From Roseovarius gaetbuli (GTDB lineage: Bacteria > Pseudomonadota > Alphaproteobacteria > Rhodobacterales > Rhodobacteraceae): a stretch of DNA of 64,000 bases. Where the stretch lies: contig NZ_FWFJ01000004.1 of assembly GCF_900172365.1 (NCBI RefSeq), forward strand, positions 62,001 through 126,000, read 5' to 3'. The translations under genes and the position numbers were made by a program. This document shows, in pieces, positions 3,985 through 32,204 of the stretch (the first letter of the stretch is position 1; each line of letters opens with the position of its first letter). The notes beneath the pieces were generated by a model. That model was given only the letters and a program-made list of their open reading frames with translations, did no database searches and was not told the origin of the DNA.

Positions 3985-4011
3985 TCGCAAACGCTCCAGA
4001 GAGGGCCCCAA

Positions 4012-4560
4012 ATGACCGATAGATTTCTGACAAGACTACGTGCGCTCAACCGGGTGGTGGCGGTGCTGATTGGCATCATGCTTCTGGCCTGCGCGGGCTT
4101 CGTTCTGCTTGATATCGTTCTGCGGCAAGTGGGGTCCTCTTTTGGCGGCACCGATGAGGTGTCTGGCTATGTCATGGCGATCGCCACCTCCTGGGGCATG
4201 GCCTATGCGATGCTTGAACTTGGCCATGTGCGCATCGACATCCTGCGGAGCCGCGCCGCCGGGCGCGGCCGATGCCTGTTTGATCTGGCCTCGCTGATGA
4301 TCATGGCCGGCACGGTAAGCGTGATCGCCCTGCGCTGCTGGCCGGTGGTGGATCGCTCGATCTCCAATATGTCGCGCGCCAATACTGCGCTGGAAACGCC
4401 GCTCTGGCTGGTGCAACTGCCGTGGTTCGCCGGTTGGCTCTGGTTCGCCCTGATGGCATGGCTGACCTTTGTGACCGCGCTTGTGATGGTGCTTCAGGGC
4501 CGCTTTGATGCCTCTGAGGCAGCCATCGGCGTCTTTGGTGAAGAGGAGGCGTTTCAATGA
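4012..4560 (+). CDS. dctQ: TRAP transporter small membrane subunit (DctQ)
   Basis: A 182-residue protein with four predicted membrane helices and the DctQ-type core around FVLLDIVLRQVG and EVSGYVMAIATSWGMAYAMLELGHVRIDIL. DctQ pairs with DctM in the inner membrane to form the sodium-driven TRAP channel. The gene starts 27 bases after dctP, behind an AGAGAGGG ribosome-binding site, and overlaps dctM by four bases (ATGA), so translation of the two is coupled. Confidence 0.9.
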   Translation: MTDRFLTRLRALNRVVAVLIGIMLLACAGFVLLDIVLRQVGSSFGGTDEVSGYVMAIATSWGMAYAMLELGHVRIDILRSRAAGRGRCLFDLASLMIMAGTVSVIALRCWPVVDRSISNMSRANTALETPLWLVQLPWFAGWLWFALMAWLTFVTALVMVLQGRFDASEAAIGVFGEEEAFQ

Positions 4561-5840: not shown

Positions 5841-6759
5841 CGCGCCGCGTCAAAGGGCCGATAAGCATCGGCGTAAGATACATCGGCACCTGATAACAGC
5901 CGATAAACAACAGCATTGCCGCCCCAGTTTCAGGCGGCAATGCCCCGAGGAACAACGCAAGATTGCGATTGCCCGCGACAATCGCCAAGGCCGGGGCAGC
6001 CGTCACTTGACCGGCGCGGTGCATCAGCGCGAAAACCACGATCTGCGCGCCAAAGTTCAACCCGAAGACCACGGCCAAGGCCAGCCATAGCCCCGCATCC
6101 CCCGATAGGATCGCCGGACCAACCGCCGACATCAGCCCCACAACCACCACCGCCATCGCAAGCGTGATCACCCCGTCAACCGCGCCCTGCCCTTGCGGCC
6201 CGCGCAGCCACGGCACCGCCCGGCGCAGGATCATCGCCGCCCCACCGGCAAGCGCAATCACCGCCAAAAGCCTGAGCGCGGCAAGCGCCACAACCTCGGG
6301 CGCGCCAAAGACCGGCATCAGCCAGAACACCGGCAAGACCGTCAGCGGCAGGATCGCGGTGCCCACCACAAGCTGGCGCAGGGCCGGGCTTGGATCGGCG
6401 CCCGACAGGATCGCAAGACCGGGGCTTCCGGTCAGCGGCGCACCGGCCAGCACCAGAACCGCGCCGATCCCCAGGATCGAATTGAGCCCGCCAACCGCCC
6501 AAAGCACCGCGATTGCCAACACCGGCATGCCAACCTGCAAGGCCACGGCAAGCCCGACATAGCGCGGCAGATGCCGCCGATGCGGAAAGGCCGCAATCGG
6601 ATCAACCCGAAGCGTGGCCAGAAACAGCAGGCAGACGATCATCGGAAAGATCAGCGGCGCAAGGAATTGGGCAAGCCCTGGTGCCGTAACCCCAACCACC
6701 AGCCCGGCAATCAGCACAAGCCGCCCATGCCGCGCAAGCCCCTGCAAAAGCGCGCTCAT
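5833..6759 (-). CDS. BASS-family (bile acid:sodium symporter-like) membrane protein
   Basis: A 308-residue hydrophobic protein with about nine to ten membrane helices. The GAPLTGSPGLAILSGADPS stretch near residue 105 and VAGNRNLALFLG near residue 265 match the crossover motifs of the BASS superfamily. Substrates in this superfamily range from bile acids to pantoate and other organic anions; none can be assigned here. It is the last gene of a minus-strand operon, 5 bases after the deaminase-like gene, so it may move a product of that enzyme or of the imported nucleobase. Confidence 0.7.
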   Translation of the reverse strand: MSALLQGLARHGRLVLIAGLVVGVTAPGLAQFLAPLIFPMIVCLLFLATLRVDPIAAFPHRRHLPRYVGLAVALQVGMPVLAIAVLWAVGGLNSILGIGAVLVLAGAPLTGSPGLAILSGADPSPALRQLVVGTAILPLTVLPVFWLMPVFGAPEVVALAALRLLAVIALAGGAAMILRRAVPWLRGPQGQGAVDGVITLAMAVVVVGLMSAVGPAILSGDAGLWLALAVVFGLNFGAQIVVFALMHRAGQVTAAPALAIVAGNRNLALFLGALPPETGAAMLLFIGCYQVPMYLTPMLIGPLTRRAS

Positions 6760-6764
6760 TGCGT

Positions 6765-8045
6765 TTAGCCGCCCTGCCGGTGCCGCCGCCTGATCGTTGC
6801 GGGGCGCCCCGGCAAGGCAAGGCTCGCATCCTGACGCGGGGTTTTGGCAATCACCCGGCCCTTGGAGACCACCGCAAGACGCGCCGGGCGCAGGCGCAGC
6901 GCCTCGATCGGATCGCCCGCATCGAGTACCACCAGTGACGCCTGCGCGCCGACGTGCAAGCCATAGCCCTCAAGCCCGAGAATGCGGGCGTTCTGGGTGG
7001 TGACCATGTCAAAGCAGCGCCGCATCTCGTCGGGGTGGGACATCTGCGCCACGTGCAGCCCCATGAAGGCCACGTCAAGCATGTCCGCCGTGCCAAGCGA
7101 ATACCACGGATCAAGCACGCAATCCTGACCCCAGCCGACGGTGATACCCTGCGCCTGCATTTCCTTGACGCGGGTCAGGCCGCGCCGTTTCGGGAATGTG
7201 TCATGCCGCCCCTGCAACATGATATTGATCAGCGGATTGGGGATCGCCGCCACCCCGGCCTCGGCCATGAGCGGCAACAGTTTCGAGACATAGTAATTGT
7301 CCATCGAATGCATCGAGGTCAGGTGGCTTCCGGCGACCCGCCCCTGCAAGCCAAGGCGCTGCGCCTCAAAGGCGAGCGTTTCGATATGGCGGCTGTGAGG
7401 GTCGTCGGTCTCATCGCAATGCATATCGACGGGCACGCCACGCGCGGCGGCCAATTCACAGAGCTCGCGCACCGAGGCCGCGCCATCGGCCATGGTGCGT
7501 TCGAAATGCGGGATGCCGCCGGCCACATCCACCCCCATATCAAGCGCGCGAATGGTGTTGTCGCGCGCGGTCGGGTCGCGGTAAAACCCGTCTTGCGGAA
7601 AGGCCACCAATTGCAGGTCGATGTAACCCTTGACCTTATCGCGCACCTCCAGCATCGCCGCCACGCCAAGCAGGCGGTCATCGCAGGTGTCGACATGGCT
7701 GCGGATCGCCAAAAGGCCCATGCTCGCCGCCCAATCGCAATACTCCAGCGCGCGGCTGACCATCTCTTCCTGGGTCACGATCTCTTTCAATTCACCCCAA
7801 AGGCCAATCCCCTCAAGCAGGGTGCCGCTCGCGTTGACGCGCGGGGTGCCATAGCTAAGGGTCGCGTCCAGATGAAAATGCGGGTCGACAAACGGCGGGC
7901 TGACAAGATCGCCGGTGGCGTCAATCACCTCGCCCGCGTCCGCCTCTTGCAGGTTGCCGATCGCGGTGATCCTGGCGCCGGTGATGCCAATATCGGCCAC
8001 CCGCCCATCGGGCAACGTTCCGCCCTTGACGATCAGATCGAACAT
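6765..8045 (-). CDS. Cytosine-deaminase-like amidohydrolase
   Basis: A 426-residue metal-dependent amidohydrolase, strongly like E. coli CodA: metal ligands HFHLDATLSYG near residue 65, RSHVDTCD near 115, HCDETDD near 215, SHLTSMHSM near 245 and PKRRGLTRVKEM near 290. In E. coli the next motif reads HDDVFDPWY; here it is Q307-D308-C309. The metal-binding aspartate is kept, but the second aspartate, which shapes the pyrimidine pocket, is a cysteine. The substrate may therefore be another pyrimidine or a triazine-like amide rather than cytosine. The start at ATG 8045 shares one base with the stop of the upstream permease gene (TGATG). A longer frame extends upstream but only antisense into the permease gene. 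Confidence 0.8.
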   Translation of the reverse strand: MFDLIVKGGTLPDGRVADIGITGARITAIGNLQEADAGEVIDATGDLVSPPFVDPHFHLDATLSYGTPRVNASGTLLEGIGLWGELKEIVTQEEMVSRALEYCDWAASMGLLAIRSHVDTCDDRLLGVAAMLEVRDKVKGYIDLQLVAFPQDGFYRDPTARDNTIRALDMGVDVAGGIPHFERTMADGAASVRELCELAAARGVPVDMHCDETDDPHSRHIETLAFEAQRLGLQGRVAGSHLTSMHSMDNYYVSKLLPLMAEAGVAAIPNPLINIMLQGRHDTFPKRRGLTRVKEMQAQGITVGWGQDCVLDPWYSLGTADMLDVAFMGLHVAQMSHPDEMRRCFDMVTTQNARILGLEGYGLHVGAQASLVVLDAGDPIEALRLRPARLAVVSKGRVIAKTPRQDASLALPGRPATIRRRHRQGG

Positions 8046-19074: not shown

Positions 19075-19152
19075 ATCATCCCGCCTTTTCGCTTTGGACT
19101 GGATTGATATGCATAATTGTGTATTTTTTCCCATCAAGGGGAGAAAACGCAC

Positions 19153-19860
19153 GTGTTCAGCCTGACTGACATCCTGAGCGAAGCGCTTGGCCTGATCCTG
19201 ACGTGGGATCGGGGCCTGAGCGAAATCGTCATGCTGTCACTGCGCGTGACCCTCACGGCGGTGGTGATTTCCTGCCTGATCGGCCTGCCGCTTGGTGCGG
19301 TGGTTGGCGCGTTCCGCTTTCCGGGCCGTGGCGTGCTCACCGTTTTGCTGAACGCTCTGATGGGCCTGCCGCCGGTTGTGGTCGGGCTTGTGGTTTACCT
19401 GATGCTCTCGGCCTCGGGGCCGCTTGGGGTGTTGCAACTGCTCTATACGCCCACCGCGATGATCATCGCGCAGACCATCCTTGTGACACCGATCATAGCA
19501 GCGCTCACCAAGCAGGTGGTCGAGGATCTGCATGTTGAATACCGCGAGCAATTCGCCTCGCTTGGCGTCGGCGCGTTTGATCGCATCACCGCGCTGCTCT
19601 GGGATGCGCGCTATAGCCTTCTGACGGTCGCCCTCGCCGGGTTTGGCCGCGCCGTGGCCGAGGTTGGCGCGGTGCTTATCGTGGGGGGCAACATCAACCA
19701 CGTGACCCGCGTGATGACCACGACCATCGCGCTTGAAACCTCGAAGGGAAACCTTGAACTCGCCCTCGCGCTCGGGCTCTTGCTGTTGGCGATTGCGGTG
19801 ATCGTGAACGCCCTTGTGATGGCGCTCCGGGCCTCTGCGGTGCGGGCGGCCTATGCGTGA
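19153..19860 (+). CDS. tupB: Tungstate ABC transporter permease TupB
   Basis: A 235-residue permease with five to six helices and the binding-protein-dependent EAA-like loop (EYREQFASLGVGAFDRITALLWDARY near residue 130). The stretch AEVGAVLIVGGNINHVTRVMTTTIALET near 175 is characteristic of TupB-type oxyanion permeases. I chose the GTG at 19153 because a GGGGAGA ribosome-binding site sits 7 bases before it; the ATG at 19117 would add a polar leader. The next gene overlaps by 8 bases. Confidence 0.88.
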   Translation: MFSLTDILSEALGLILTWDRGLSEIVMLSLRVTLTAVVISCLIGLPLGAVVGAFRFPGRGVLTVLLNALMGLPPVVVGLVVYLMLSASGPLGVLQLLYTPTAMIIAQTILVTPIIAALTKQVVEDLHVEYREQFASLGVGAFDRITALLWDARYSLLTVALAGFGRAVAEVGAVLIVGGNINHVTRVMTTTIALETSKGNLELALALGLLLLAIAVIVNALVMALRASAVRAAYA

Positions 19861-20617
19861 CATGACCCTTGATATGACCATCCCCGATGGCGCCACAGCG
19901 CCCGCCTTGCTTGCCTGTCAGGGGCTGTCGTTTGATGCGGGCGGGAAACGGCTGATTAATGATCTGACGCTTGAAATCCGCCCCGGTCGGCGCACCCTGG
20001 TGATGGGCCCGAATGGCGCCGGCAAAAGCGTTCTGCTGCGCCTTTTGCACGGGCTTATCGCGCCCACGGTCGGCGCGGTTCTCTGGCAGGGTGACCCGCT
20101 TGACCGCGCTGCGCGCGACGCACAGGCGATGGTGTTTCAGCGCCCTGTCATGCTGCGCCGCTCGGTTCTGGCCAACCTCAAATTCGCCCTCACAGTGCGC
20201 GGCGTCACCGGGGCCGCGCGCGCCGCAAAGGCCGCCGAGGCGCTTGAGCTTGCCCGCCTCACCGATTTGGCGCGCCGCCCCGCGCGGGTCTTGTCGGGGG
20301 GTGAACAACAACGCCTTGCACTCGCCCGCGCCCTTGTCGGCGAGCCTCGGCTTTTGTTCCTTGATGAGCCAACCTCAAGCCTAGATCCGGCCTCGACCCA
20401 CGCGATCGAGGATCTGATCAACGCCGCCCATGCGCGTGGCGTCAGCATCGTGATGGTCACCCATGACCTCGGACAGGCGCGGCGCATGGGCGATGATGTG
20501 ATCTTTCTTCAGAACGGCACCCTGGCCGAGGACGGCACCCTGCAAGACGTTCTGGCCGCGCCACAGGCGCCCTCTACCAAGGCCTGGCTTGAAGGCCGAC
20601 TTTACACCGCGCCCTAA
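19853..20617 (+). CDS. tupC: Tungstate ABC transporter ATPase TupC
   Basis: A 254-residue ABC ATPase. Walker A is GPNGAGKSVLL near residue 50, Q-loop VFQRPVM near 92, signature VLSGGEQQRLALARAL near 148, Walker B LLFLDEPTSSLDP near 170 and the switch histidine MVTHDL near 202. Gene order tupB-tupC-tupA is a common variant. Tungstate or molybdate uptake would serve molybdo-enzymes such as SoxCD, encoded 10 kb away, or formate dehydrogenase. Confidence 0.88.
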   Translation: MRDMTLDMTIPDGATAPALLACQGLSFDAGGKRLINDLTLEIRPGRRTLVMGPNGAGKSVLLRLLHGLIAPTVGAVLWQGDPLDRAARDAQAMVFQRPVMLRRSVLANLKFALTVRGVTGAARAAKAAEALELARLTDLARRPARVLSGGEQQRLALARALVGEPRLLFLDEPTSSLDPASTHAIEDLINAAHARGVSIVMVTHDLGQARRMGDDVIFLQNGTLAEDGTLQDVLAAPQAPSTKAWLEGRLYTAP

Positions 20618-20649
20618 TCTCAAATTCCAACAGGTCACGGAGTTTTTCA

Positions 20650-21474
20650 ATGATCAGATGTCACCTTCTTTCGCTTGCCGCATCCACCTTTCTGGCCCTT
20701 GGTCTTAGCGGCGCGGCACAGGCCGGGGACAGCTTTATCGTGGTGCAATCGACCACCTCGACCCAAAATTCCGGCCTGTTCGATCATATCCTGCCGATCT
20801 TTACCGAAAAGACCGGGATCGAGGTGCGCGTCGTGGCCGTCGGCACCGGGCAGGCGATCCAGAACGCCGCCAATGGCGATGGTGATGTCCTGTTCGTGCA
20901 TGCCAAGCCCGCCGAGGAGAAATTCGTCGCCCAAGGCCACGGTGTTGCCCGCTTTGACGTGATGTACAACGACTTTGTCATCGTCGGCCCGCCCGCCGAC
21001 CCCGCCGGTGTGGCGGGCATCACCGATGTGGTGGACGCCCTCACGCGCATCGCCGAGGCCGAGGCGCCCTTTGCCTCGCGCGGCGATGACAGCGGCACCA
21101 ACAAGGCCGAGCTGCGGCTTTGGGCCGAGACGGGCATCGACGTGCGTGCCGTATCGGGCGATTGGTATCGCGAAACCGGCTCGGGCATGGGCGCGACGCT
21201 CAACACCGGCACCGCCATGGGCGCCTATATCATGACCGACCGCGCCACCTGGATCGCCTTTGGCAACAAGGGCAGCTACAAGATCGCGGTCGCGGGCGAT
21301 GCGAAGATGTTCAACCAATATGGCATCATCCTCGTGAACCCCGAGATGCATGAAAACGTCAAGGCCGAGGCCGGTCAGACCTTTATCGACTGGGTTCTGT
21401 CCGACGAGGGCCAGGCCGCGATTGCCGACTACAAGGTCGACGGCCAACAGCTGTTCTTCCCGAACGCGGGCTAG
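20650..21474 (+). CDS. tupA: Tungstate-binding periplasmic protein TupA
   Basis: A 274-residue secreted protein, signal peptide MIRCHLLSLAASTFLALGLSG with cleavage near residue 25. The STTSTQNSG motif at the start of the mature protein and SRGDDSGTNKAE near residue 140 are the oxyanion-binding signature of TupA, which is selective for tungstate over molybdate. It is the last gene of the three-gene importer operon and converges on the HTH/PBP regulator gene, leaving only 12 bases between stops. Confidence 0.9.
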   Translation: MIRCHLLSLAASTFLALGLSGAAQAGDSFIVVQSTTSTQNSGLFDHILPIFTEKTGIEVRVVAVGTGQAIQNAANGDGDVLFVHAKPAEEKFVAQGHGVARFDVMYNDFVIVGPPADPAGVAGITDVVDALTRIAEAEAPFASRGDDSGTNKAELRLWAETGIDVRAVSGDWYRETGSGMGATLNTGTAMGAYIMTDRATWIAFGNKGSYKIAVAGDAKMFNQYGIILVNPEMHENVKAEAGQTFIDWVLSDEGQAAIADYKVDGQQLFFPNAG

Positions 21475-21486
21475 GCCAAAGAGGCC

Positions 21487-22356
21487 CTATTTCGAGATCC
21501 AGCGCACGCGCCCGAGATCGCCGATATCATAGCCGCCAAGCGCCCCGGCCTTGGCGGCAAAGGCCTCGCTTTGGGCAAAGTGCAACAAGCTTTGCACCGG
21601 CTCGGTGAAATAGGACCGCCGATCAATCAGCAGATCAAACCGCTCGTCCACAAGCGGCACGAAGGGCAGGTGAAACTGCTGCGCCATCGCCCTGATGCCA
21701 AGGGTCGCGTCGGCCTCGCCAGCGGCAATCGCGGCGGCGGCATCGCTTTCGGTATGGGCCAACCCACCGGCCACGACGATATCGGCCTCATCCAATCCCG
21801 CCTCGGTCATCAGACGCTGAAACAGCGCCGCCGCCCCGGCACCGGGCTGGCGCAGGATCACCCGCTTGCCGCGCAAATCGCCAACGCCGCGCACGTCGCT
21901 GGCCGCACCCTCCGACAAGATAAGACCGCGCGCCCGCAGCGCCCAACCGATCAGCACGCAATTGCCCAAACCAGCGGCCTCAACCGCCGCGATGTTCCAT
22001 CCTTCGGCGTCGGGGATATGCAGGCCGGCCACCGCCGCCTGACCCTGCACGAAACAGGCTAGACCGTCGCGGCTTCCGTTCAAAAGCGTCGCGAGCCCCG
22101 CCCCGCATTCACGCAGCGCCCAATCCAGAAGCGGATCATGCGAGCCGGTCACAAGCGCCGGGCGCTCGGCACTCCCAGCCGCGCCAGAGCCCTCGATCCA
22201 GGCCGTCAACTCGGCCGCCGGAAACAACAGCTTGCCGGTGATCTTGCGATGCGGGATCTCTTCGGCGGCGACCAGATCGTAAACCTTGCGCTCTTTCACA
22301 CGCAAAAGATCGGCCACCTCCTTGGTCGTCAAATAGGCGGGCTGTTGGGTATCCAT
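21487..22356 (-). CDS. Excisionase-type HTH plus PBP-like regulator, likely oxyanion-sensing
   Basis: A 289-residue protein. Residues 8-60 form an excisionase/MerR-like helix-turn-helix (YLTTKEVADLLRVKERKVYDLVAAEEIPHRKI), and residues 75-285 a substrate-binding-like domain (DLRGKRVILRQPGAGAA, GGLAHTESDAAAAIAAGEADATLGIRAMA). This pairing of HTH_17 and PBP_like domains is known in putative molybdate/tungstate-responsive regulators. It lacks a signal peptide, so it should sense the anion in the cytoplasm. Convergent placement beside tupBCA supports control of that operon. I used ATG 22356; an in-frame ATG at 22410 is possible. Confidence 0.7.
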   Translation of the reverse strand: MDTQQPAYLTTKEVADLLRVKERKVYDLVAAEEIPHRKITGKLLFPAAELTAWIEGSGAAGSAERPALVTGSHDPLLDWALRECGAGLATLLNGSRDGLACFVQGQAAVAGLHIPDAEGWNIAAVEAAGLGNCVLIGWALRARGLILSEGAASDVRGVGDLRGKRVILRQPGAGAAALFQRLMTEAGLDEADIVVAGGLAHTESDAAAAIAAGEADATLGIRAMAQQFHLPFVPLVDERFDLLIDRRSYFTEPVQSLLHFAQSEAFAAKAGALGGYDIGDLGRVRWISK

Positions 22357-22497
22357 GTTGCGAAAGGTGCCTTTTGAAATCTCTGTGCTCTGGCCAAGGT
22401 AACCCATCACAATCCGGAAATCAGCAGGAAACAGAGCCGCATTTCAACCAAGACCCCCCGCAAAATAATCCTTGTCTTTCGGCCCCTGCCTGTGGTC

Positions 22498-22531: not shown

Positions 22532-23446
22532 ATGACACCGACCAGACGACAGGTTCTTTGCGGCCTTGGGGCAACGGCGATCCTTGGTGCGCCTCGCATG
22601 ACATTTGCTGCCGACCGGATGACGCTTGGCACGGCCACGATCACCACCGTAAGCGACGGTCACCTCGTGCTGCCGAAAGAGTTTCTGCTTGGCAATCTGC
22701 CCAGTGACGAAACCGCACCCCTGCTCGCAAAATACGGCATCACCGGCGATGTGATGCACCCGCCCTGCAACGTCACCCTGCTTCAGGATGGCGATCGCAC
22801 CGTTCTGTTTGATGCCGGATCGGGCAACGGATTCATGCCAAGTGCGGGCGATCTGGTCGACACACTTGATGCCCTCGGCGTCGCGCCTGACGATGTGACT
22901 GATTTGGTCTTTACCCATGGCCATCCCGATCACCTCTGGGGGGTGCTGGATGATTTCGACGATCTGGTCTTTGCCAATGCAAGTTACATGATCGGCCAAC
23001 GGGAATGGGACTATTGGACCGATCCCGACACCGTCAACACCATCGGCGAAGAACGCGCGAGCTTTGCCGTCGGCGCCGCCCGCCGCCTCGCCGCGATCGA
23101 GGATCAGGTCAACTTTTTCAAAGATGGCCAAGAGGTGCTTCCCGGTGTGATGGCGCATGCCACCTTCGGGCATACGCCGGGGCATATGTCGTTCGAAATC
23201 CGTCAGGGAAGCGATGCGGTGATGGTCATCGGCGATGCCATCGGAAACGGCCATATCGCCTTTGAGCGCCCCGATTGGGCCAGCGGCTCGGATCAGGACG
23301 CCGAGGGCGGCATCAAGACCCGAAAGCGGCTCTTGGATCAGCTGGCACAGGATAAAATGGCGATGATCGGCTTCCATTTGCCCGACGGTGGCCTTGGCCG
23401 GGTCGAGCGCAGCGGCGACAGCTATCGCTTTGTGAGCGAGGTTTGA
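22532..23446 (+). CDS. Exported metallo-beta-lactamase-fold hydrolase of the sox locus (SoxG-like)
   Basis: A 304-residue protein with a twin-arginine-like leader (TRRQVLCGLGATAILGAP). The zinc-binding motif is intact: H129-G-H131-P-D133-H134 in FTHGHPDHLWG, with further ligands in HTPGHMSF near residue 213 and VIGDAIGN near 235. The family usually hydrolyses thiol-ester or similar bonds in the periplasm. In Paracoccus the sox locus ends with two such genes (soxG, soxH), and two tandem genes are present here too, although on the opposite strand from soxF. A candidate SoxR operator lies directly before it. The name is by analogy. Confidence 0.75.
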   Translation: MTPTRRQVLCGLGATAILGAPRMTFAADRMTLGTATITTVSDGHLVLPKEFLLGNLPSDETAPLLAKYGITGDVMHPPCNVTLLQDGDRTVLFDAGSGNGFMPSAGDLVDTLDALGVAPDDVTDLVFTHGHPDHLWGVLDDFDDLVFANASYMIGQREWDYWTDPDTVNTIGEERASFAVGAARRLAAIEDQVNFFKDGQEVLPGVMAHATFGHTPGHMSFEIRQGSDAVMVIGDAIGNGHIAFERPDWASGSDQDAEGGIKTRKRLLDQLAQDKMAMIGFHLPDGGLGRVERSGDSYRFVSEV

Positions 23447-23450
23447 GACG

Positions 23451-24395
23451 ATGAAACACCTGCTTCTTGCCCTCGCCCTTGTCACCACTCCGGCCCTCGC
23501 CAGCGAGAATATCGCCGATAAATACCCCGGTTCGCTGCTTTACGACGAACCGGTCGAGGTGATCCCCGGCGTCTGGTCCGCCATCGGCGCCACGGCGCCG
23601 CCCTCTTATGAAAACTCGGGCCATAACAACAACCTGAGCTTTATCGTCACCGGCGACGGCGTTGTCGTGATCAACGGCAGCGCCGCCTATGCCCTGGCAA
23701 AGGCGCTGCATGACGAGATCAAGCGCATCACCGATCAGCCGGTCAAGCTTGTGTTCAACGAAAATGGTCAGGGCCACGCCACGCTTGGCAATTCCTATTG
23801 GGCCGAACAGGGCGTGCCGATTGTCGCGCATGTCGATGCCGCCCATGAGGTCGAGAAAAACGGCGGCCCCAACCTTCAAGCGATGAAGGGCTATAACCGC
23901 GACAAGGCCGAGGGCACCACCGTGCAGGTCCCGACCGAAACCTTCAGCGACGAATATATCGTCGAAATGGGTGATTTCCGCATCGAGGCGCGCCACCTTG
24001 GCCCCGCCCACAGCCCCGGCGATATCGTGGTCTGGCTACCCGAACAAAGCCTGGTGATCTCGGGGGATATGGCGTTTCACGAACGCATGCTGCCGATCTT
24101 TGCCGATACCATCACCGCCGATTGGCTAGAGACTTGGGACAACGAATTCGAGGCGCTCAACGCCACCTATGTGATCCCCGGCCACGGCCACCCCACCAAT
24201 GTGGCGCAGGTCCGCCGATATACCAAAGGCTACCTCGAACACCTGCGCGCCCAGATCCGGGCGCATATTGACGAGGGCGGTGACCTGAGCGATGCCTATT
24301 ACGTCGACCAGTCGGCCTATTCCCACCTCGACACGTTCGAAGAACTCGCCACCAAGAACGCCGGTCGGGTCTATGAACAGATGGAGTGGGAATAA
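23451..24395 (+). CDS. Exported MBL-fold protein with altered zinc motif (SoxH-like)
   Basis: A 314-residue periplasmic protein, signal peptide MKHLLLALALVTTPALA. The fold is that of quinoprotein-relay-type MBL proteins: GPAHSPGDIVVW near residue 187, SGDMAFHERMLP near 205 and VIPGHGHPT near 245 keep the later zinc ligands. The first motif, normally HxHxDH before a TLGN-like turn, reads N105-E-N-G-Q107-G-H109-A110, so three of its four ligands are replaced. It starts 4 bases after the preceding MBL gene, so the two are coupled. It may bind one metal, or none, or use the Asn/Gln set as a family trait. Confidence 0.75.
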   Translation: MKHLLLALALVTTPALASENIADKYPGSLLYDEPVEVIPGVWSAIGATAPPSYENSGHNNNLSFIVTGDGVVVINGSAAYALAKALHDEIKRITDQPVKLVFNENGQGHATLGNSYWAEQGVPIVAHVDAAHEVEKNGGPNLQAMKGYNRDKAEGTTVQVPTETFSDEYIVEMGDFRIEARHLGPAHSPGDIVVWLPEQSLVISGDMAFHERMLPIFADTITADWLETWDNEFEALNATYVIPGHGHPTNVAQVRRYTKGYLEHLRAQIRAHIDEGGDLSDAYYVDQSAYSHLDTFEELATKNAGRVYEQMEWE

Positions 24396-24514: not shown

Positions 24515-25579
24515 TCAGGTCGTCACAACCCGAACCGCGCCCCGACCCATCACAAGATGCGTGGCTATCGCGCCAATCCACATGCAGAACACCGCGACCC
24601 ACGCTGTGAGCGCAAAAATCGCGCCGCCCGACATGCCCGCGCCCACGGCACAGCCGCCCGCAAGCATACTACCAAACCCCATCAGGGCCGCGCCGACAAG
24701 GTAACGCTCCATCGGGGTATCGGGGCCAAAGCGTTCGATTTTCCATTCACGCGTCGCGATGGCCATGCCCGCCGCACCGACAAACACCCCCGGCACAAGC
24801 CCGACTCCGAACCCAAGCGGCAAGCTCGTGCTGTTGACCAGCCCCATCAAGGTATCCGCCGACGGGCCGGTAAAGGTGATCGAGGAAATAGCCACCACCT
24901 CGAATGAAGTCTGCGCAATCATATAGGTCGCCAACCAGCCAAAGCCGACAGCAAGCCCGACAAAGACCCCGGCAATCGCATGGCTGGCGCGCACACCGCG
25001 CATATGCGCAAGCCACAGAGCCGCCAGCAGAACCAGCCCGGCAATGGCCGCCGCAAGGCCCGGACCCATACCAAGATGCGACAAGATATTGCGCGCCTCG
25101 CCACCCGGCACCAGCCAGAGCGCGCCAAGCGCCTCGCGCACCGGGGCCAGAACCCCGCGCAGGGCCGATTGCGCGACCAGCGTCAGAACAAGACCGGTGA
25201 CAATGGCGCGCAGATTGCCGGTGGCCGACAAGACCAACAACCGGCTGGCACAGCCGCGCGCAAGGATCATGCCGGTGCCAAACATCAGCCCGCCGATGAT
25301 CGCGCCAGACATGCTTCCGGTCGCGGCAAGCGGGCGCGCCTCACTGACGTCAAGCAGGCCAAACGCGATCATGCCCTGCACCACCATCACCCCGGCAGAA
25401 AACGCAATCAGCCAGATCGACAGACGCGGCCCAAAGCCACCCGTCGCCACCTCGATCGAGGCCGCGCGCAGACAAAACCGCGAGTGTTGCGCCGCCGCGC
25501 CAAAGATCAGCCCGACAAGCGCCCCGGCCATCATCAGAACCGCGCCGTCGCCAAACCTGTCAATCAAGCCTTCAAGCAT
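24515..25579 (-). CDS. YeeE/YedE family sulfur-compound permease (full length)
   Basis: A 354-residue membrane protein with about nine helices and the duplicated YeeE/YedE pattern of the thiosulfate channel TsuA. Three cysteine sites are visible: SRFCLRAASIE near residue 35, LARGCASRLLVLSATGN near 105 and LAGGCAVGAGMSGG near 320; these relay the thiosulfate ion through the pore in TsuA. It lies beside the sox genes on the minus strand. A candidate FNR/DNR-type box (25636-25649) is 57 bases upstream of its start, suggesting oxygen or nitric-oxide control separate from SoxR. Confidence 0.85.
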   Translation of the reverse strand: MLEGLIDRFGDGAVLMMAGALVGLIFGAAAQHSRFCLRAASIEVATGGFGPRLSIWLIAFSAGVMVVQGMIAFGLLDVSEARPLAATGSMSGAIIGGLMFGTGMILARGCASRLLVLSATGNLRAIVTGLVLTLVAQSALRGVLAPVREALGALWLVPGGEARNILSHLGMGPGLAAAIAGLVLLAALWLAHMRGVRASHAIAGVFVGLAVGFGWLATYMIAQTSFEVVAISSITFTGPSADTLMGLVNSTSLPLGFGVGLVPGVFVGAAGMAIATREWKIERFGPDTPMERYLVGAALMGFGSMLAGGCAVGAGMSGGAIFALTAWVAVFCMWIGAIATHLVMGRGAVRVVTT

Positions 25580-25681: not shown

Positions 25682-26110
25682 CTATTCCAGCGCGCTTTGC
25701 ACGATCCCGTCCAAAAGCGCCTGGACCTTCTGCATCTCGCCTTGCGGATAGGTGCGATGGCCAATCACCACCTCGCCGCCCTGATCCGCCACGAAGATGC
25801 TATAGGGGCAGTGGGCGATATTCATCGGGTTTACCTCCATCACTTCGCGCGACACCTGCGCCGAGCAGAACAGAAAAATATCGGCGGCATCGAATATCTT
25901 GACGTCACTGCCCACATCGGCGCCGGTCCGGTTCAGCATCTCACCGACATGGCTTGTGAAATCAATCACAAGCCCCTCGCCGACAATGGCGTTTTCCACC
26001 GCAAAGGTGGCATCCTCAAAGCTGCCGTTAAAGGGCGTGGTCACAACCTCTTGCGCCATGGCCGACACAGCCATCATTCCGAATATCGCGGCAAATACTG
26101 TCTGTTTCAT
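25682..26110 (-). CDS. Secreted DUF302 family protein
   Basis: A 142-residue periplasmic protein: signal peptide MKQTVFAAIFGMMAVSAMA, then a DUF302 domain (FEDATFAVENAIVGEGLVIDFTSHVGEML, later AHCPYSIFVAD and VVIGHRTYP). I used ATG 26110 with a GAGAGAGA ribosome-binding stretch. The gene follows soxF by 39 bases on the same strand, so it is probably the last gene of the sox operon. DUF302 proteins are small and of unknown role; the single cysteine (CPYS, near residue 103) is notable in a sulfur context. Confidence 0.8.
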   Translation of the reverse strand: MKQTVFAAIFGMMAVSAMAQEVVTTPFNGSFEDATFAVENAIVGEGLVIDFTSHVGEMLNRTGADVGSDVKIFDAADIFLFCSAQVSREVMEVNPMNIAHCPYSIFVADQGGEVVIGHRTYPQGEMQKVQALLDGIVQSALE

Positions 26111-26149
26111 GGTCTCTCTCCTTGGGTGAAAATCGGCGCCCACAGGCGC

Positions 26150-27418
26150 CTAGCCGAACATGTCGGCGGTGATGCCTGCATACCAGCCGATCGATTCCTG
26201 ATAGGTTGCCTTGCGCGTCGCGGCATCCTCGCCGGTTTGTGAAATGAACCCGTCGACCTTGGCGATCTTGTCGGCCGTCGCCTCATAGGTGGCGCCCACC
26301 TTGACCCCATCATCGGAATCAATCAGCGACCAGCAGGTATTGGTAAACTTGGCCGGGAACACCTTGGACCCGGTCAGCGCACCGCGCACCGCCATGGCAC
26401 AAACCTTGGCCTGGCTGTTGGCGGCAAAGCCCGATTTCGGCATGTCGCCCTGCGCGGCCGCATCGCCAAGCACATGCACATCCGGGTCAACCTTGCTCGA
26501 CAGATCGGCGGCATTGACCGGCACCCAATTGCCATCGGTGACACCGGCGATGTCGGCAATCCGCCCGGCCTTTTGCGCCGGGATAACGTTGCAGACGTCA
26601 ACCTTTTCGACCATCCCGTCGATGTCAATCGTCATGTCATCGGGATTGACCGACACGTTGGTGCCGCCAAAATCCGGGCCGATCCGCTCGATCATGCCGG
26701 TATAGTGACTTTGCCAGCCTTCCTCGAACAGCCCCTGCTTGGAGAACTTTTCCTTCGGGTCGATCACGAGAATTTTGGCGCTCGGGTTGATCTGCTTGAG
26801 AACATGCGCCACCATCGACACCCGCTCGTAAGGGCCCGGCGGACAGCGATAGGGGTTGGGCGGCGCGACAAGAGCAAAGGTGCCGCCCTCGGGCATCGCC
26901 ATGACCTGCGCCTTGAGCAATTCGCTCTGCGATCCGGCCTTATAGGCATGCGGCATGGCGTTTTGCGCGGCCACACTCCACCCCGGAACGGCATCCTCGA
27001 CGAAATCAATGCCGGGGCTGAGGATAAGCTTGTCATAAGACAATTGCGCACCCCCCGCGAGGGTCACGGTCTTGGCCGCGCGATCCACGTCAATCGCCCA
27101 GTCATGCACCACGTTGATCCCGTATTTGGCCGCCAGCGTGCCATAGGTATGCGAGATATCCTCAAGATCGGTGAACCCGGCGATATAGAGGTTGGAAAAG
27201 AAACAGGTGAAATAGCTGCGCGACGGCTCGACAAGGGTAACGTCGATCGCACCCTTGGAATCTTTGGCGAGATAGCGCGCCACCGTGGCCCCCCCGGCCC
27301 CGCCGCCGATTACCACCACGCGGGGTTTACCATGGCCGTCGGCCAGAACCGCAGGGGCCGACAACGCCGCAGCGGCAGCCGCTCCGGTTCCGATAAACTT
27401 TCGACGGTTCAATGTCAT
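26150..27418 (-). CDS. soxF: SoxF, flavocytochrome c sulfide dehydrogenase-type flavoprotein
   Basis: A 422-residue FAD protein with a twin-arginine leader (NRRKFIGTGAAAAAALSAP). The FAD-binding motif VVIGGGAGGATVARYL is near residue 35. Redox-active cysteines of the FCSD family appear in APPNPYRCPPGPYERV near residue 192 and in KFTNTCWSLI near 350. With the diheme protein SoxE it oxidises sulfide in the periplasm and can stimulate the Sox system. It follows soxE by 28 bases. Confidence 0.95.
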   Translation of the reverse strand: MTLNRRKFIGTGAAAAAALSAPAVLADGHGKPRVVVIGGGAGGATVARYLAKDSKGAIDVTLVEPSRSYFTCFFSNLYIAGFTDLEDISHTYGTLAAKYGINVVHDWAIDVDRAAKTVTLAGGAQLSYDKLILSPGIDFVEDAVPGWSVAAQNAMPHAYKAGSQSELLKAQVMAMPEGGTFALVAPPNPYRCPPGPYERVSMVAHVLKQINPSAKILVIDPKEKFSKQGLFEEGWQSHYTGMIERIGPDFGGTNVSVNPDDMTIDIDGMVEKVDVCNVIPAQKAGRIADIAGVTDGNWVPVNAADLSSKVDPDVHVLGDAAAQGDMPKSGFAANSQAKVCAMAVRGALTGSKVFPAKFTNTCWSLIDSDDGVKVGATYEATADKIAKVDGFISQTGEDAATRKATYQESIGWYAGITADMFG

Positions 27419-27446
27419 CTTGGTCTCCTCCCTAATACCCTGCGAT

Positions 27447-28148
27447 TCAATCGAGGGCCCCGAAATACGTTGCAAGCGCGGCAATCTCTTCGTTTGAAAG
27501 CCGCCCCGCCATCATCTGCATCACCGGATGCGAGCGTAGTTTCGCCTTATAGGCGTGCATGGCAACCACGAAATCATCTTCTGGCCAATGTGTGATCGAC
27601 GGAATGCCGTTGGCGCTGCCGTCAATCTGATGACAACTCACGCATTCGCTGCTTAGGTATTCGCCATATTCCGGGTCGCCCTGAAGCGCGAGAATTTCGG
27701 GTGCAACTGAATGATCCGTGCCGCGCGCAGTTGGCGCCGCCTCGGGGATATTCTGCGGATTGTCGGAAAACCGGCGCAGATAGGCGAGAAGATCGGCGCG
27801 TTCTTGCGCATCCTCCAACCCGCCAAAGCTCATCCGGGTTTTCGACACCAATGCGCGCGGATTGGCTATATAGGCATCAAGCCGCGACAAATCCCAGACC
27901 AGCCCGTCAACGCCTGCGCGCTTCATCGAGGCGGAATAGGCAAAACCGTCGTGCGCGGCGGCGGGCCGTCCGAACAACCCGTTAAGATGCGGCCCGATGG
28001 CGTCTTGCGCGCCCTTGCCGATCTCATGACAGCCGCTGCACATTTCAAAAACGTCGGCCCCGGCCTCGGCGTCACCGATGGCCTCTGACCGCGCTGTCCC
28101 TGCCGCGAAAATCACGGCAAGGACGAAGGGTAGAAACCGTTGGGGCAT
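27447..28148 (-). CDS. soxE: SoxE, diheme c-type cytochrome
   Basis: A 233-residue periplasmic cytochrome: signal peptide of about 22 residues, then two class I cytochrome c domains with heme motifs CSGCH near residue 37 and CVSCH near 168. Candidate axial methionines lie in TRMSFGGL and HPVMQMMAG. It is the electron-accepting partner of the SoxF flavoprotein. It lies between soxD and soxF, the normal Paracoccus order. Confidence 0.93.
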   Translation of the reverse strand: MPQRFLPFVLAVIFAAGTARSEAIGDAEAGADVFEMCSGCHEIGKGAQDAIGPHLNGLFGRPAAAHDGFAYSASMKRAGVDGLVWDLSRLDAYIANPRALVSKTRMSFGGLEDAQERADLLAYLRRFSDNPQNIPEAAPTARGTDHSVAPEILALQGDPEYGEYLSSECVSCHQIDGSANGIPSITHWPEDDFVVAMHAYKAKLRSHPVMQMMAGRLSNEEIAALATYFGALD

Positions 28149-28157
28149 GATCAGCCC

Positions 28158-29195
28158 CTAGTCGGCGAAGCTGGACAGATAAGCGGCAATGGCGGCCTGA
28201 TCTTCCTCGGATTTAAGCCCTGCAAAACCCATTTTCGTGCCTTTCATATAACCGCGCGGATTGGCCAGGAACGCCGAAATAGTCTCTTCGTTCCACACCA
28301 GCCCCTCGTCGGCCCTGGCCATGAGCGCCTTTGAGTACTTGAACCCTTCAACAGACCCGGCCGCACGACCCATGACACCGTTAAGCTGTGGCCCGGCCCG
28401 ATCCTTGGCACCTTCGCCAACCTGATGGCAAGCCTTGCATTTCTTGAACACCTTTTCACCGGCTTCAATCAACGCCGGATCGACGGCGGCAACTTCGGGC
28501 TCCGGCGCGGGCTCCGGTTCTGCAACCGCAACCGCAACCGGCTCTGCCTCAGCGGCCTCCGCCTCTTCCACATCCGGGGTCACGTCAAGCACGCGGGCGC
28601 GCATGGTGATCTTGACCTCATCCTTGCAGTTTTCCATGCAAGGCTCGCCCGTCCACTTGGCATATTCGGTTTCGGCGCGGTCATCGACGATAAAGCCCCC
28701 GGCATTGGGCATCTCGACCTCGGCGAAGTTCTCGTGGCTCAGGGTGAAATCCTCGTCCACGAGATTGTTGGAATAAAGGATATAGGCCGTGATGGCGTAA
28801 ACCTCGTCATTGCTCAGGCTCTGCGCATTGCCAAACGGCATCGAGCGGTTGACGTAATCCCAGACCGTCGAAAGATAGGGCCAGTATGACCCGACCGTCT
28901 TGAGCGGATCTTCGTGGTCAAGCGTATCCCAGCCCCCGGCCAGCTTGGGCCAATTGCCGACACCTTCGGCGAAATCCCCGTGACAGACGGCGCAATTCTC
29001 GGCGAACACCTCATCCCCGGTCCAGACATCGCCCGAGCCTTCGGGCAAACCGCGCCCATCGGGCATGATCTTGACATCCCAAGCGGCAATTTCCTCGGGC
29101 AGCGCGGGGCGGCCAAGGCCGAAGTCCCCGGCAAAAACGGCGGTGGCGCTGATGGCAAAGCCGGCGGCAAGGGTGAATTTAAGAAACTTCGACAT
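28158..29195 (-). CDS. soxD: SoxD, diheme cytochrome subunit of sulfane dehydrogenase SoxCD
   Basis: A 345-residue periplasmic diheme cytochrome, signal peptide near residues 1-22. Heme motif CAVCH sits near residue 62 and CKACH near 255. Between the two domains (about 200-240) is a low-complexity linker rich in Glu, Ala, Pro and Val. SoxD takes six electrons from SoxC as the sulfane sulfur on SoxY is oxidised. I start it at ATG 29195, which overlaps soxC by 17 bases, instead of the longer frame. Confidence 0.95.
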   Translation of the reverse strand: MSKFLKFTLAAGFAISATAVFAGDFGLGRPALPEEIAAWDVKIMPDGRGLPEGSGDVWTGDEVFAENCAVCHGDFAEGVGNWPKLAGGWDTLDHEDPLKTVGSYWPYLSTVWDYVNRSMPFGNAQSLSNDEVYAITAYILYSNNLVDEDFTLSHENFAEVEMPNAGGFIVDDRAETEYAKWTGEPCMENCKDEVKITMRARVLDVTPDVEEAEAAEAEPVAVAVAEPEPAPEPEVAAVDPALIEAGEKVFKKCKACHQVGEGAKDRAGPQLNGVMGRAAGSVEGFKYSKALMARADEGLVWNEETISAFLANPRGYMKGTKMGFAGLKSEEDQAAIAAYLSSFAD

Positions 29196-30450
29196 TCTCT
29201 GCCTCCCCGTTGGGCTTGACCCACCACGTCTGAATGCAATTGTTGTGATAGATTGAGTTGAGTCCACGCACTTCGCGCAGCTGTGTCTTGGTCGGCTGAA
29301 CATAGCCGGTCTCGTCCATGGCGCGGCTCTGCAACAGCATCTCTGTCCCGTCCCACGTGGTATCAAGATAGAACCGCGTCAGCGCCATACGCTCGCCGGG
29401 CTTGGCAAGGCGGGCGGTTTCCCATGTCTTGCCACCGTCCTTGGATACGTCCACCCGTGTGATGGCTCCCCGACCTGACCAAGCCAGGCCGGAGATCACC
29501 AAAGGCCCGGTTCCGTGAGTGATGGGCGCTTGCGGGCTGGGCGATGTCACGACAGATTTTGCATCCATCTCCCATGTCCATTTGCGGCTGGTGCCGTCTT
29601 CCAATGTATCGGTGTATTTGCTGGTCTCTTCGCGGCTTTGCACGGCGGCATCGGTCACCTCGATCCGGCGCAGCCATTTGACCCACATATTGCCTTCCCA
29701 ACCGGGCACGACAAGACGCACAGGATATCCGTGTTCCTTGCGCAACGCCTCGCCATTGGCCTTGAACGCGACAAGCACGTCATCAAGCGCCTTTTCCATC
29801 GGGATCGAACGCCCGTTCGACGACGCATCGGCGCCCTCGACGTAAACCCATTTACCCTCGGTCTTGACGCCCGCCTCTTCCAGGATCGTGCGCAGCGGCA
29901 CGCCGGTATATTCCATGTTGTGGATCATGCCGTGGGTGAACTGCGCGCCGTTCAACTGTGCGCCGGCCCATTCCATCCCGGTATTGGCCGCACATTCACA
30001 GAAATAGACGTGGTTCTCGCGCGGAAAGCGTTCAAGATCGGCGTATGTAAAGACCAGCGGCGTATCGACAAGACCGTTGATCATCAGGCGATAATCGTCC
30101 TTGGCAAGCTCGATCGCGCCGGAATGGTGCCGCTCGAACGCACAGCCCTGCGGCGTGATCGTGCCGTCAAGCGCATGGATCGGCGTAAAGTTGATCGAGC
30201 TGATCGTATCCGCCGTCAGCCAGTCAACATTGCGCCGCACCACGTCGTTTTCAAACTGGATCGGCAGGCCATAGGGCGTGACGTCAACGCCTTCGCCAAG
30301 ACCCTGCGCCCAGGGCTGTGGCTCGACTATCAGCGGATCGGGCGTTGCCGCCTTGGCCGCGCCCGCCGCAAGCGCACCGGCCCCCGCCGCTGCCGCTCCG
30401 CGCAGAAACCCGCGCCGTGATGTGGATTTGCCTTTGAAGGTCTCGGACAT
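29179..30450 (-). CDS. soxC: SoxC, molybdopterin sulfane dehydrogenase
   Basis: A 423-residue sulfite-oxidase-type molybdoenzyme with a twin-arginine leader (TSRRGFLRGAAAAGAGALAAG), so the cofactor is loaded before export. The molybdenum-binding cysteine is in VYFCECAANTG near residue 153, followed by MEWAGAQLNGAQFTHG. The C-terminal dimerisation domain begins near 300. With SoxD it oxidises the sulfane sulfur of SoxYZ-bound thiosulfate, which lets the cell avoid sulfur globules. Its need for molybdenum links it loosely to the tup genes 8 kb away. Confidence 0.96.
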   Translation of the reverse strand: MSETFKGKSTSRRGFLRGAAAAGAGALAAGAAKAATPDPLIVEPQPWAQGLGEGVDVTPYGLPIQFENDVVRRNVDWLTADTISSINFTPIHALDGTITPQGCAFERHHSGAIELAKDDYRLMINGLVDTPLVFTYADLERFPRENHVYFCECAANTGMEWAGAQLNGAQFTHGMIHNMEYTGVPLRTILEEAGVKTEGKWVYVEGADASSNGRSIPMEKALDDVLVAFKANGEALRKEHGYPVRLVVPGWEGNMWVKWLRRIEVTDAAVQSREETSKYTDTLEDGTSRKWTWEMDAKSVVTSPSPQAPITHGTGPLVISGLAWSGRGAITRVDVSKDGGKTWETARLAKPGERMALTRFYLDTTWDGTEMLLQSRAMDETGYVQPTKTQLREVRGLNSIYHNNCIQTWWVKPNGEAENVEVS

Positions 30451-30477: not shown

Positions 30478-32175
30478 TCACGCGCCAATCACTTTGACGC
30501 TGTTATTGGGTTCAACGCGCACAGTGCCCTGTTTGCGGATATGGCTTTCGACGACATCCCAGATCTGCGGCCCTTCGGTGCCCTCGTTGACCGAGGCCCA
30601 GCCGGCGACCTGATAGGTCTTGGAGGCATCAAGCGCCTCGCCGGTTTTCAACAGGGTCATATCGGTGATCCGGCTGCCCTGCGGCTTGGTGATATCAATC
30701 CGATAGCCAAGCCCGCCAAGCCGCACCATATCGCCGCCCTGCTGGTAATAGGGGTCGGGATTGAACAGGTTGTCCGCGACATCCTCAAGGATGACATGGA
30801 TAAACTCGCCGGTCATTTCGGTGCGATACGCCCGGCCATAGGTCATCGAGGTCACGTTCCAAATATCCTCTCGGGTGATATCCTGCCCCGGCAGGATCGA
30901 CGGCCCCCACCGCACACCGGGCGACATGGCGATATCGGCCTCGCGCTCGCTGATCAGGGCGTCACAGATAAGATCATCCCAGGTGCCGTTGAAGTTGCCG
31001 CGTCGGTACAAAAGGCTCTCGCTCTGGCCGATCACCTCACTCAGCTCTGCCATATAAGGCGCGCGCTGTGCGTCGATCACCTCGGTGACCGCCTTGTCCG
31101 GCTCGATCACATCGCTGAAAATCGGGATAAGCTTGTGGCGGAAGCCCATCATCCGGCCGTCGCGCACATCAAGATCGACGCGGCTGACGAATTTGCCGTT
31201 CGACCCGCTGGCGACGATGATCGTCTCGCCAACCAAAACCGGCTCGGGCAAGGCATCATGGGTGTGCCCCGACAGGATGACGTCAATGCCGGTGACCTTA
31301 CCGGCCATCTTCTTGTCGACGTCAAAACCGTTATGGCTGAGCACGACGACCAACTCGGCGCCCTTGGCGCGCACTTCGTCAACCATCGCCTGCATGTTCT
31401 CGTCGCGGATACCAAAGCTGTATTCCGGGAACATCCAGCCGGGATTGGCAATCGGCATGTAAGGAAAAGCCTGACCGATCACGGCAACATTGACGCCGCC
31501 GCGCTCGAAGAACTTGTAAGGCGGGAAGATATCAACCGGCTCGTCCCATTCCGCGTCAAAGATATTCTGGCCAAGGGCGGCAAAGGGCAATCCCTCGACA
31601 ATCTCCTGCACGCGCTCTGACCCGAGCGTGAATTCCCAGTGAAAGGTCATCGCATCCGGCTTCAATGCGTTCATCACGTTGACCATGTCCTGACCTTCGG
31701 TCTGGTAACAGGTGTAAGATCCGTGCCATGTGTCGCCGCCATCCAGCAGGATCGCATCAGGGCGGTCGGCGCGAATCGCGTTGATCACGGTCGACACCCG
31801 GTCAAGCCCGCCAACCCGGCCATAGGCCTGCGCAAGCGCCGAAAAATCGCCCGAGCTCAGTGCGTAATGCGAGGGGCTACCGTCGTCGATGCCATACATC
31901 TTGCGGAAATCGGCGCCGGTGACATGCGGCACCTGCCCCTTGTTGTCGCCCACGCCGATATTGATCGACGGCTCGCGGAAATAGATCGGCTTTAGCTGCG
32001 CGTGAATGTCGGTGATATGGATCAGCGACACATTGCCAAAGGTATCAAACTGCAAGAGCTGATCCTGCGTCAGCGCCTGTTGCGCCGCAACCCTCGACCA
32101 CTGGCCAAAGGATGACGCGCCCAGAATGGCCGAAGCCGCCATGCTCGTCTGAAGAAAATCACGCCGCGAGATCAT
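30478..32175 (-). CDS. soxB: SoxB, S-sulfosulfanyl-L-cysteine sulfohydrolase
   Basis: A 565-residue dimanganese hydrolase of the 5'-nucleotidase fold, the same size as the Paracoccus enzyme. It begins MISRRDFLQTSMAASAILG, a twin-arginine leader. Metal ligands are seen in LIHITDIHAQL near residue 50, LDGGDTWHGS near 165, and ILSGHTHDALP near 305. It releases sulfate from SoxY-bound intermediates. I used ATG 32175 with GGAAGGG 6 bases upstream rather than the ATG 24 bases earlier. A terminator hairpin and a SoxR-like site lie just upstream. Confidence 0.96.
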   Translation of the reverse strand: MISRRDFLQTSMAASAILGASSFGQWSRVAAQQALTQDQLLQFDTFGNVSLIHITDIHAQLKPIYFREPSINIGVGDNKGQVPHVTGADFRKMYGIDDGSPSHYALSSGDFSALAQAYGRVGGLDRVSTVINAIRADRPDAILLDGGDTWHGSYTCYQTEGQDMVNVMNALKPDAMTFHWEFTLGSERVQEIVEGLPFAALGQNIFDAEWDEPVDIFPPYKFFERGGVNVAVIGQAFPYMPIANPGWMFPEYSFGIRDENMQAMVDEVRAKGAELVVVLSHNGFDVDKKMAGKVTGIDVILSGHTHDALPEPVLVGETIIVASGSNGKFVSRVDLDVRDGRMMGFRHKLIPIFSDVIEPDKAVTEVIDAQRAPYMAELSEVIGQSESLLYRRGNFNGTWDDLICDALISEREADIAMSPGVRWGPSILPGQDITREDIWNVTSMTYGRAYRTEMTGEFIHVILEDVADNLFNPDPYYQQGGDMVRLGGLGYRIDITKPQGSRITDMTLLKTGEALDASKTYQVAGWASVNEGTEGPQIWDVVESHIRKQGTVRVEPNNSVKVIGA

Positions 32176-32204
32176 ATCGGACCCTTCCACATCCCGCATA
32201 GGTT

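Follow-up and report, generated by a model that had tools for sequence, protein, structure and literature searches.

A conserved, altered metal motif in the MBL-fold protein SoxH of Roseovarius gaetbuli

Introduction

What kind of site is left in a protein of the MBL fold when every conserved position of its HxHxDH metal motif has been replaced? This question is raised by soxH of Roseovarius gaetbuli, a gene that lies beside a run of sox genes in the window, i.e., the whole stretch of 64,000 nucleotides that was analysed. Judged by its residues, the metal site of this Sox protein, which is known but poorly understood, clearly departs from the MBL pattern. Passages of the literature call SoxG and SoxH zinc metallohydrolases (PMC10221251) and give the function of soxH as unknown (PMC4891895, PMC11237559). 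Sulfate release from SoxY by the so-called SoxH of Sulfurovum and Sulfurimonas is proposed or cited in passages of two papers (PMC10045233, PMC11237559); these proteins may or may not belong to the family described here. No description of the changed SoxH motif was found in the titles and abstract openings of open-licence PubMed Central papers. An earlier paper may nevertheless mention it, for example Rother et al. 2001, reportedly a paper on soxFGH. In a passage of PMC11582611, Rother et al. 2001 (PMC95344) is cited for sox genes.

Gene context

The soxGH genes and the neighbouring sox genes have the following positions in the window.

22532..23446, + strand: SoxG, 304 aa, MBL fold, intact HxHxDH (Pfam Lactamase_B, 1.2e-19)
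22916..22933, + strand: HGHPDH of SoxG, residues 129-134
23451..24395, + strand: SoxH, 314 aa, MBL fold (open reading frame; Pfam Lactamase_B, 3e-09, above the gathering score)
23451..23501, + strand: predicted Sec-type signal peptide of SoxH, residues 1-17, recognized by eye from the sequence
24515..25579, - strand: SoxT/TsuA-like sulfur transporter (Sulf_transp; Pfam above the gathering score, TsuA model below cut-off)
25682..26143, - strand: DUF302 protein, encoded between the SoxF and SoxT genes (match at 65/80 named loci)
26150..27484, - strand: SoxF-type flavoprotein (FCSD domains)
27447..28148, - strand: cytochrome c protein, called SoxE by position (Pfam Cytochrom_C; no SoxE model reached)
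28158..29366, - strand: cytochrome c protein, called SoxD by position (Pfam Cytochrom_C in two stretches; no SoxD model reached)
29179..30450, - strand: SoxC (TIGR04555, 597 bits against a cut-off of 420)
30478..32199, - strand: SoxB, used here as marker of the Sox system (TIGR04486, thiosulfohydrolase SoxB, 844 bits against a cut-off of 550)

Both soxG and soxH are on the + strand and face a minus-strand run that encodes the SoxT-like transporter, the DUF302 protein, the SoxF-type flavoprotein, the putative SoxE and SoxD, SoxC, and SoxB. SoxB and SoxC score above the curated cut-offs and mark the presence of a Sox system in this genome. In a passage of PMC11034169, a DUF302 protein is listed as orf3, without a known function. 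For SoxG, the nearest NCBIfam model is the AidB lactonase, whose cut-off (360 bits) is not reached by the score of 145.7 bits. The signal sequence of SoxH suggests that the protein is exported to the periplasm.

Adjoining soxG, positions 19117-22410 hold genes for an ABC transporter of the tungstate type (TupA- and TupB-like, with scores under the cut-offs), as well as a gene for a helix-turn-helix plus periplasmic-binding-like protein. Five named loci (L032, L036, L037, L038, and L053) show this gene order as well.

The altered motif and its conservation

Residues that bear on the metal site of SoxH are given below; fractions refer to SoxH rows collapsed at 95% identity.

23622..23624, + strand: H58 of GHNNN (112/112)
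23673..23675, + strand: N75, Asp in relatives (Asn in 112/112)
23757..23780, + strand: altered metal motif NENGQGHA, residues 103-110, with the HxHxDH positions at residues 105-110
24009..24011, + strand: H187, retained ligand position, in GPAHSPGD (112/112)
24066..24068, + strand: D206, retained bridging-ligand position, in SGDMAFHER (112/112)
24078..24086, + strand: H210-E211-R212 (H210 and R212 each 112/112)
24183..24185, + strand: H245, retained ligand position, in PGHGHPT (112/112)

The original prediction had stated that the motif position reads N105-x-Q107-x-H109-A110, that most of HxHxDH is lost, and that later ligands are kept, and it is borne out on each of these points. Positions 23757-23780 are in frame and encode NENGQGHA. 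In HMMER alignments, the motif region matches the chains of CphA and Sfh-I, mono-zinc B2 beta-lactamases, without a gap, so that N105, Q107, H109, and A110 occupy the four conserved positions of HxHxDH. The six positions of the motif read N-G-Q-G-H-A in the window protein, and all four conserved ones are replaced. Of the signature of a di-zinc MBL-fold hydrolase, which consists of HxHxDH and a later His, Asp, and His, the first part is thus changed to NxQxHA, and the later ligands are present as H187, D206, and H245.

An alignment of SoxH homologues at this motif, the check named together with the prediction, gave a uniform picture. The main alignment comprised 178 rows, 142 of which reach an identity of 50% with the window protein; rows with stops, a duplicate of the window (L001), and a broken copy from genome G014 (L025) were dropped from the counts. 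N-x-Q-x-H occurs in 142/142 of these closer rows and is followed by Ala in 141 and by Ser in 1, and N, Q, and H are found in 112/112 SoxH rows after collapse at 95% identity. In this non-redundant set, H87 is as invariant (112/112) as the residues so marked in the list above, and H247 is present in 110/112 rows. The pattern EN[GA]QGH[AS].LG matches 167/167 SoxH loci (some places counted twice), and the codons for E104, N105, Q107, G108, and H109 show only synonymous variation among 134 distinct SoxH sequences. Among 225 rows assembled afterwards, in which some places appear under two locus ids, there are 165 rows with NQHA, 3 with NQHS, 38 with GQHR, and 19 others.

Because N, Q, and H are kept in 142/142 homologues while synonymous codons vary, the change is not a local loss; on the evidence of these alignments, NxQxHA is a fixed trait and the normal state of SoxH, not a peculiarity of the window protein. 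The picture is that of a functional protein whose metal site has changed, and not that of a decayed copy. Recent decay in the window strain, or a sequencing or assembly error, can be dismissed with near certainty, as the same motif is found in separate assemblies of R. marisflavi DSM 29327 (L037, SoxH 98% identical to the window protein) and R. lutimaris DSM 28463 (L032, 94%) and in every other SoxH row. A broken soxH does exist in L025 (G014), where the gene is in two pieces, one of them with internal stops.

Paracoccus-type SoxH and its namesakes

The gene order on plasmid pPAN3 of Paracoccus pantotrophus DSM 11072 (NZ_CP038206.1) was obtained by tblastn with the window proteins, the stretch having no annotated features, and forms the row soxB-C-D-E-F-G-H with a SoxH that carries NENGQGHAMLGNG. 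Like the window protein, to which it is 61-63% identical, this SoxH has the NENGQGHAMLGN motif and is encoded beside SoxG, here at the end of the row. The arrangements differ in that the window soxGH faces soxT, the DUF302 gene, and soxF on the opposite strand, whereas soxGH of P. pantotrophus comes after soxF. Orthology of the two proteins is indicated by their identity, the shared neighbours, the tree, and the presence of one such gene per genome searched. Since the SoxH of the P. pantotrophus row carries the changed motif, the window protein is, by sequence comparison, a Paracoccus-type SoxH, and the altered motif belongs to that type.

Among named models, those closest to the window SoxH are the quinoprotein relay zinc metallohydrolases TIGR04559 (9.1e-42) and TIGR04558 (1.1e-35), which have the same fold. 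The scores are far below the curated cut-offs, however (143.4 against 280 bits and 123.1 against 300 bits, respectively), and membership in either family was rejected for this reason. Paracoccus SoxH likewise scores about half of the TIGR04559 cut-off. A protein from Caballeronia (L222:3990-5018), the only member of this kind that was checked, passes TIGR04559 with 399 bits and has HMHPDH; its gene adjoins those for a PQQ dehydrogenase and a carrier of the SoxYZ-like kind. According to a passage of PMC12997753, Pseudomonas putida has a PQQ-linked SoxH-like gene next to a SoxYZ-like gene. Full HxHxDH was found in 15/19 more distant rows of our set. The scores, the tree, and the one checked member make it likely that the intact-motif, PQQ-linked "SoxH" proteins are a family separate from Paracoccus-type SoxH. 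If the Paracoccus type lacks the zinc motif, conclusions such as zinc hydrolysis or sulfate release from SoxY cannot simply be carried over from one protein called SoxH to another.

The Caballeronia plasmid (L222) has SoxH-like genes on either side of the gene for the SoxYZ-like carrier, at 3990-5018 and 5902-6840, near the PQQ dehydrogenase gene. In the product of the latter, the motif and the later ligand positions that were read are lost, and its scores are below both TIGR cut-offs.

Distribution and link to the Sox system

With SoxH as query, matches at an E-value of 1e-20 were obtained in 127/295 genomes of the family, some of these being the sister family described below or an intact-motif relative alone. 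At 1e-30, matches were found in 11/385 genomes of the class and 12/398 of the phylum. Sorted by motif, SoxH accounts for 7 genomes of the class set and the sister family for 4. In the phylum set, 8 genomes carry SoxH, including one that does not belong to the class, and another 4 have just the sister family. The SoxH from outside the class, in G858, has NENAQGHS, and matches to SoxB and SoxCD are located nearby.

The marker gene soxB was present in 76/76 SoxH genomes tested as compared with 24/50 chosen genomes without SoxH. Since both genome lists were a hand selection from related organisms, the Fisher p value of 1.9e-13, which is uncorrected for choice and relatedness, serves as a guide only. 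Eight of the 50 genomes without SoxH carry the sister family, and soxB is present in 6 of these 8. Among 32 distinct places that have no SoxG in the surrounding stretch, pntA lies beside soxH in 19. At these places, which are away from sox, soxH lies upstream of pntAB, mostly with a phospholipid-methyltransferase-like gene in between (e.g., in L214 and L216), and soxB was found in 18/18 tested genomes of the 19. A conserved ORF of 261 aa upstream of soxH at the pntAB loci was set aside; it has no family match and is, by its composition, probably an antisense frame.

The link between SoxH and the Sox system rests on co-occurrence and gene order, and soxB without SoxH is common. Because 24/50 tested genomes that lack SoxH still carry soxB, SoxH is probably an accessory of the Sox system and not a core enzyme.

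A sister family with a related motif

A second family with a changed motif, named MBL fold metallo-hydrolase in plasmid records, is 31-41% identical to SoxH and has Q107 and H109 in common with it. At the four motif positions, this sister family has Gly, Gln, His, and Arg in 38/38 rows (some of them duplicate places), and the motif is GGQDHR or GSQDHR in the stretches inspected. H187, D206, and H245 are kept in 21/21 rows, with further rows in agreement where covered, and R212 is also present in 21/21. In contrast to SoxH with its Asn, position 75 is Asp in 21/21 sister rows (and in 14/15 other rows); position 58, an invariant His in SoxH, is N in 20 and D in 1 of the 21 rows, and position 210 is Val, Ile, or Met in at least 19/21.

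The surroundings differ as well, as no sox context was seen for the sister family, which occurs without SoxH in eight genomes. Genes for ArsR, a permease, and a thioredoxin lie beside it in 10/30 distinct places, and OsmC and cation transporter genes are also near it in some places of this ArsR type. Other neighbours, from the few places read, include a dnaX-ybaB-recR run, an aminoacyl-tRNA synthetase, a molybdopterin protein, and regulators. Since the sister family is found in metal-type resistance operons or mostly housekeeping surroundings and not in sox regions, the site common to both families need not mean sulfur chemistry. In L221, L223, and L202, proteins with GGQDHR or GSQDHR are encoded next to genes for ArsR, a permease, a thioredoxin, OsmC, and metal transporters.

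In trees built with the motif columns left out, SoxH and the sister family each formed one clade (SH-aLRT 98 and 97, respectively). Holding both together was not rejected (p-AU 0.663), and the branch that joins them had a support of 47 in the tree with three rows removed. In the first tree, the intact-motif protein encoded at 16912 of L200 (29% identity, from another class) was placed beside the two families on a long branch. On these topologies, Q107 and H109 of SoxH and the sister family may or may not have a single origin. The sox region of L200, which belongs to G858, contains a changed-motif SoxH at 7554 in addition to the intact-motif (HYHADH) SoxH-like gene at 16912. Of the earlier suggestion that SoxH is a subfamily with different chemistry, the subfamily stands, given the motif fixed in SoxH and the Q107 and H109 common to the sister family; the chemistry is a matter of proposal and is taken up below.

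Structure model

An AlphaFold2 model of SoxH, computed from 50 sequences, had a mean pLDDT of 79.7 and a pTM of 0.81. The loops at residues 52-57, 210-213, and 246-248 are under pLDDT 50, the loops of the candidate ligands being the weakest. The best fold match was chlorothalonil dehalogenase 6uxu (Z 27.2, rmsd 2.9, 278 aligned), followed by 8d2z (Z 26.3, rmsd 3.4, 272 aligned). Slightly lower Z-scores were obtained for the mono-zinc enzymes Sfh-I (24.7, with rmsd 2.5 over 224 residues) and CphA (24.2, with rmsd 2.6 over 222 residues); the di-zinc form of CphA scored equal to the mono-zinc form, and the difference in Z between these B2 enzymes and the B1 enzyme BcII (Z 23.1) was little over 1. 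The MBL fold of SoxH is indicated by the Pfam score above the gathering score and by the match to 6uxu, and the structural matches would speak for the fold only. No persulfide dioxygenase was among the 50 fold matches listed (VIA-align), a result that carries no evidential weight.

Proposed metal site and alternative explanations

The old first metal site (His116/His118/His196) corresponds to Asn105/Gln107/His187 in SoxH, and the old second site (Asp120/His121/Cys or Asp221/His263) to His109/Ala110/Asp206/His245. From the usual ligands, the classic two-zinc site should not be able to form. One metal ion (Zn, Fe, or Mn) may be bound near the old second zinc position by H109, in the place of Asp120, together with D206, H245, and possibly H187, and Q107 and N105 would line the pocket. 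Such a layout would resemble that of the mono-zinc B2 beta-lactamases, in which the first motif position is likewise Asn. Judged by the genomic context, SoxH may clear or release adducts of sulfur or thiols from Sox intermediates, for example from SoxYZ; hydrolysis, redox chemistry, and simple binding are all possible. We give an even chance to the reading in which SoxH is active in the periplasm as an accessory to Sox and binds one metal through H109, D206, H245, and perhaps also H187.

Conservation alone would also fit SoxH as a binding protein without catalysis. The original prediction had considered soxH and a coupled neighbour with an intact motif as catalyst and partner, and SoxH could indeed be a pseudoenzyme that binds or presents a substrate to be hydrolysed by SoxG. 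The coupling was confirmed: soxG, with HGHPDH, ends 4 bases before the ATG of soxH, SoxG and SoxH are side by side in 80/80 nearest named loci (the best 80 of 500 matches), and SoxG retains HxHPDH wherever covered, namely in 125/127 matches of at least 45% identity, the remaining 2 not being covered by the alignment. The pairing as such is weakened, however, by genomes that have no close SoxG. In 40 SoxH genomes chosen by hand, the best SoxG match at an E-value of 1e-20 was at least 44% identical in 20 genomes and 32-40% identical in 17, and 3 genomes, one of them 84% complete, gave none; in all 20 genomes whose best match does not exceed 40%, SoxH keeps N, Q, and H. In the SoxH of G858, a genome with no close SoxG, residue 106 is Ala and residue 110 is Ser, and SoxH is found without SoxG in the sox regions of L203, L204, L206, and L200. 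That the motif is kept in such genomes makes obligate pairing unlikely. Moreover, H109 never varies and neither do the three retained ligand positions; a dead site would have no need of this. We regard SoxH as a non-catalytic partner of SoxG as rather doubtful. The two SoxH-like genes of L222 appear to be a better candidate for a pair of catalyst and dead partner.

A two-metal site might also have been rebuilt from H58, H210, or H247, which are typical of SoxH, in combination with H109, H187, D206, and H245. The high conservation of H58 and H210 (112/112 each) and H247 (110/112) and the location of H210 and H247 next to ligand positions in the sequence are in line with this idea. However, the sister family shares Q107 and H109 and has N or D at position 58 (21/21) and Val, Ile, or Met at position 210 (at least 19/21), and the model is poor in the relevant loops. 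We consider a rebuilt site unlikely. Quite improbable is a metal-free pocket that binds a small sulfur compound or a protein thiol, with SoxH acting as carrier or sensor. It would agree with the replacement of all four conserved motif residues and of the usual Asp at position 75, but H187, D206, and H245, which bind metal in relatives, and the new H109 are invariant.

Compared with the preferred reading of an active accessory with one metal, a more far-reaching proposal is that SoxH and its GGQDHR sisters form a distinct MBL lineage. Its single metal, with one Asp and three His as ligands and a conserved Gln nearby, would serve redox chemistry on protein-bound sulfur, such as oxidation or release of a SoxY persulfide, and not zinc hydrolysis. 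This we offer as a long shot. With its invariant residues, SoxH offers a direct and inexpensive choice of sites for mutants.

Comparison with known metal sites

The motif of subclass B2 metallo-beta-lactamases is NxHxDR in combination with Cys221. SoxH is like this subclass (CphA, Sfh-I) in having Asn at the first motif position, in keeping the later His positions, and in its high fold similarity, but it has His for Asp120, Gln for His118, and Asp for Cys221. The window protein was rejected as a B2 beta-lactamase, as it scores 57.2 bits against a cut-off of 240 and agrees with the motif in the Asn alone. Among solved structures, the best sequence match to SoxH is 8d2z, a protein of the MBL superfamily from Burkholderia cenocepacia (5.1e-20). 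Its motif is also changed, although elsewhere than in SoxH, and reads HYHAVR in the alignment.
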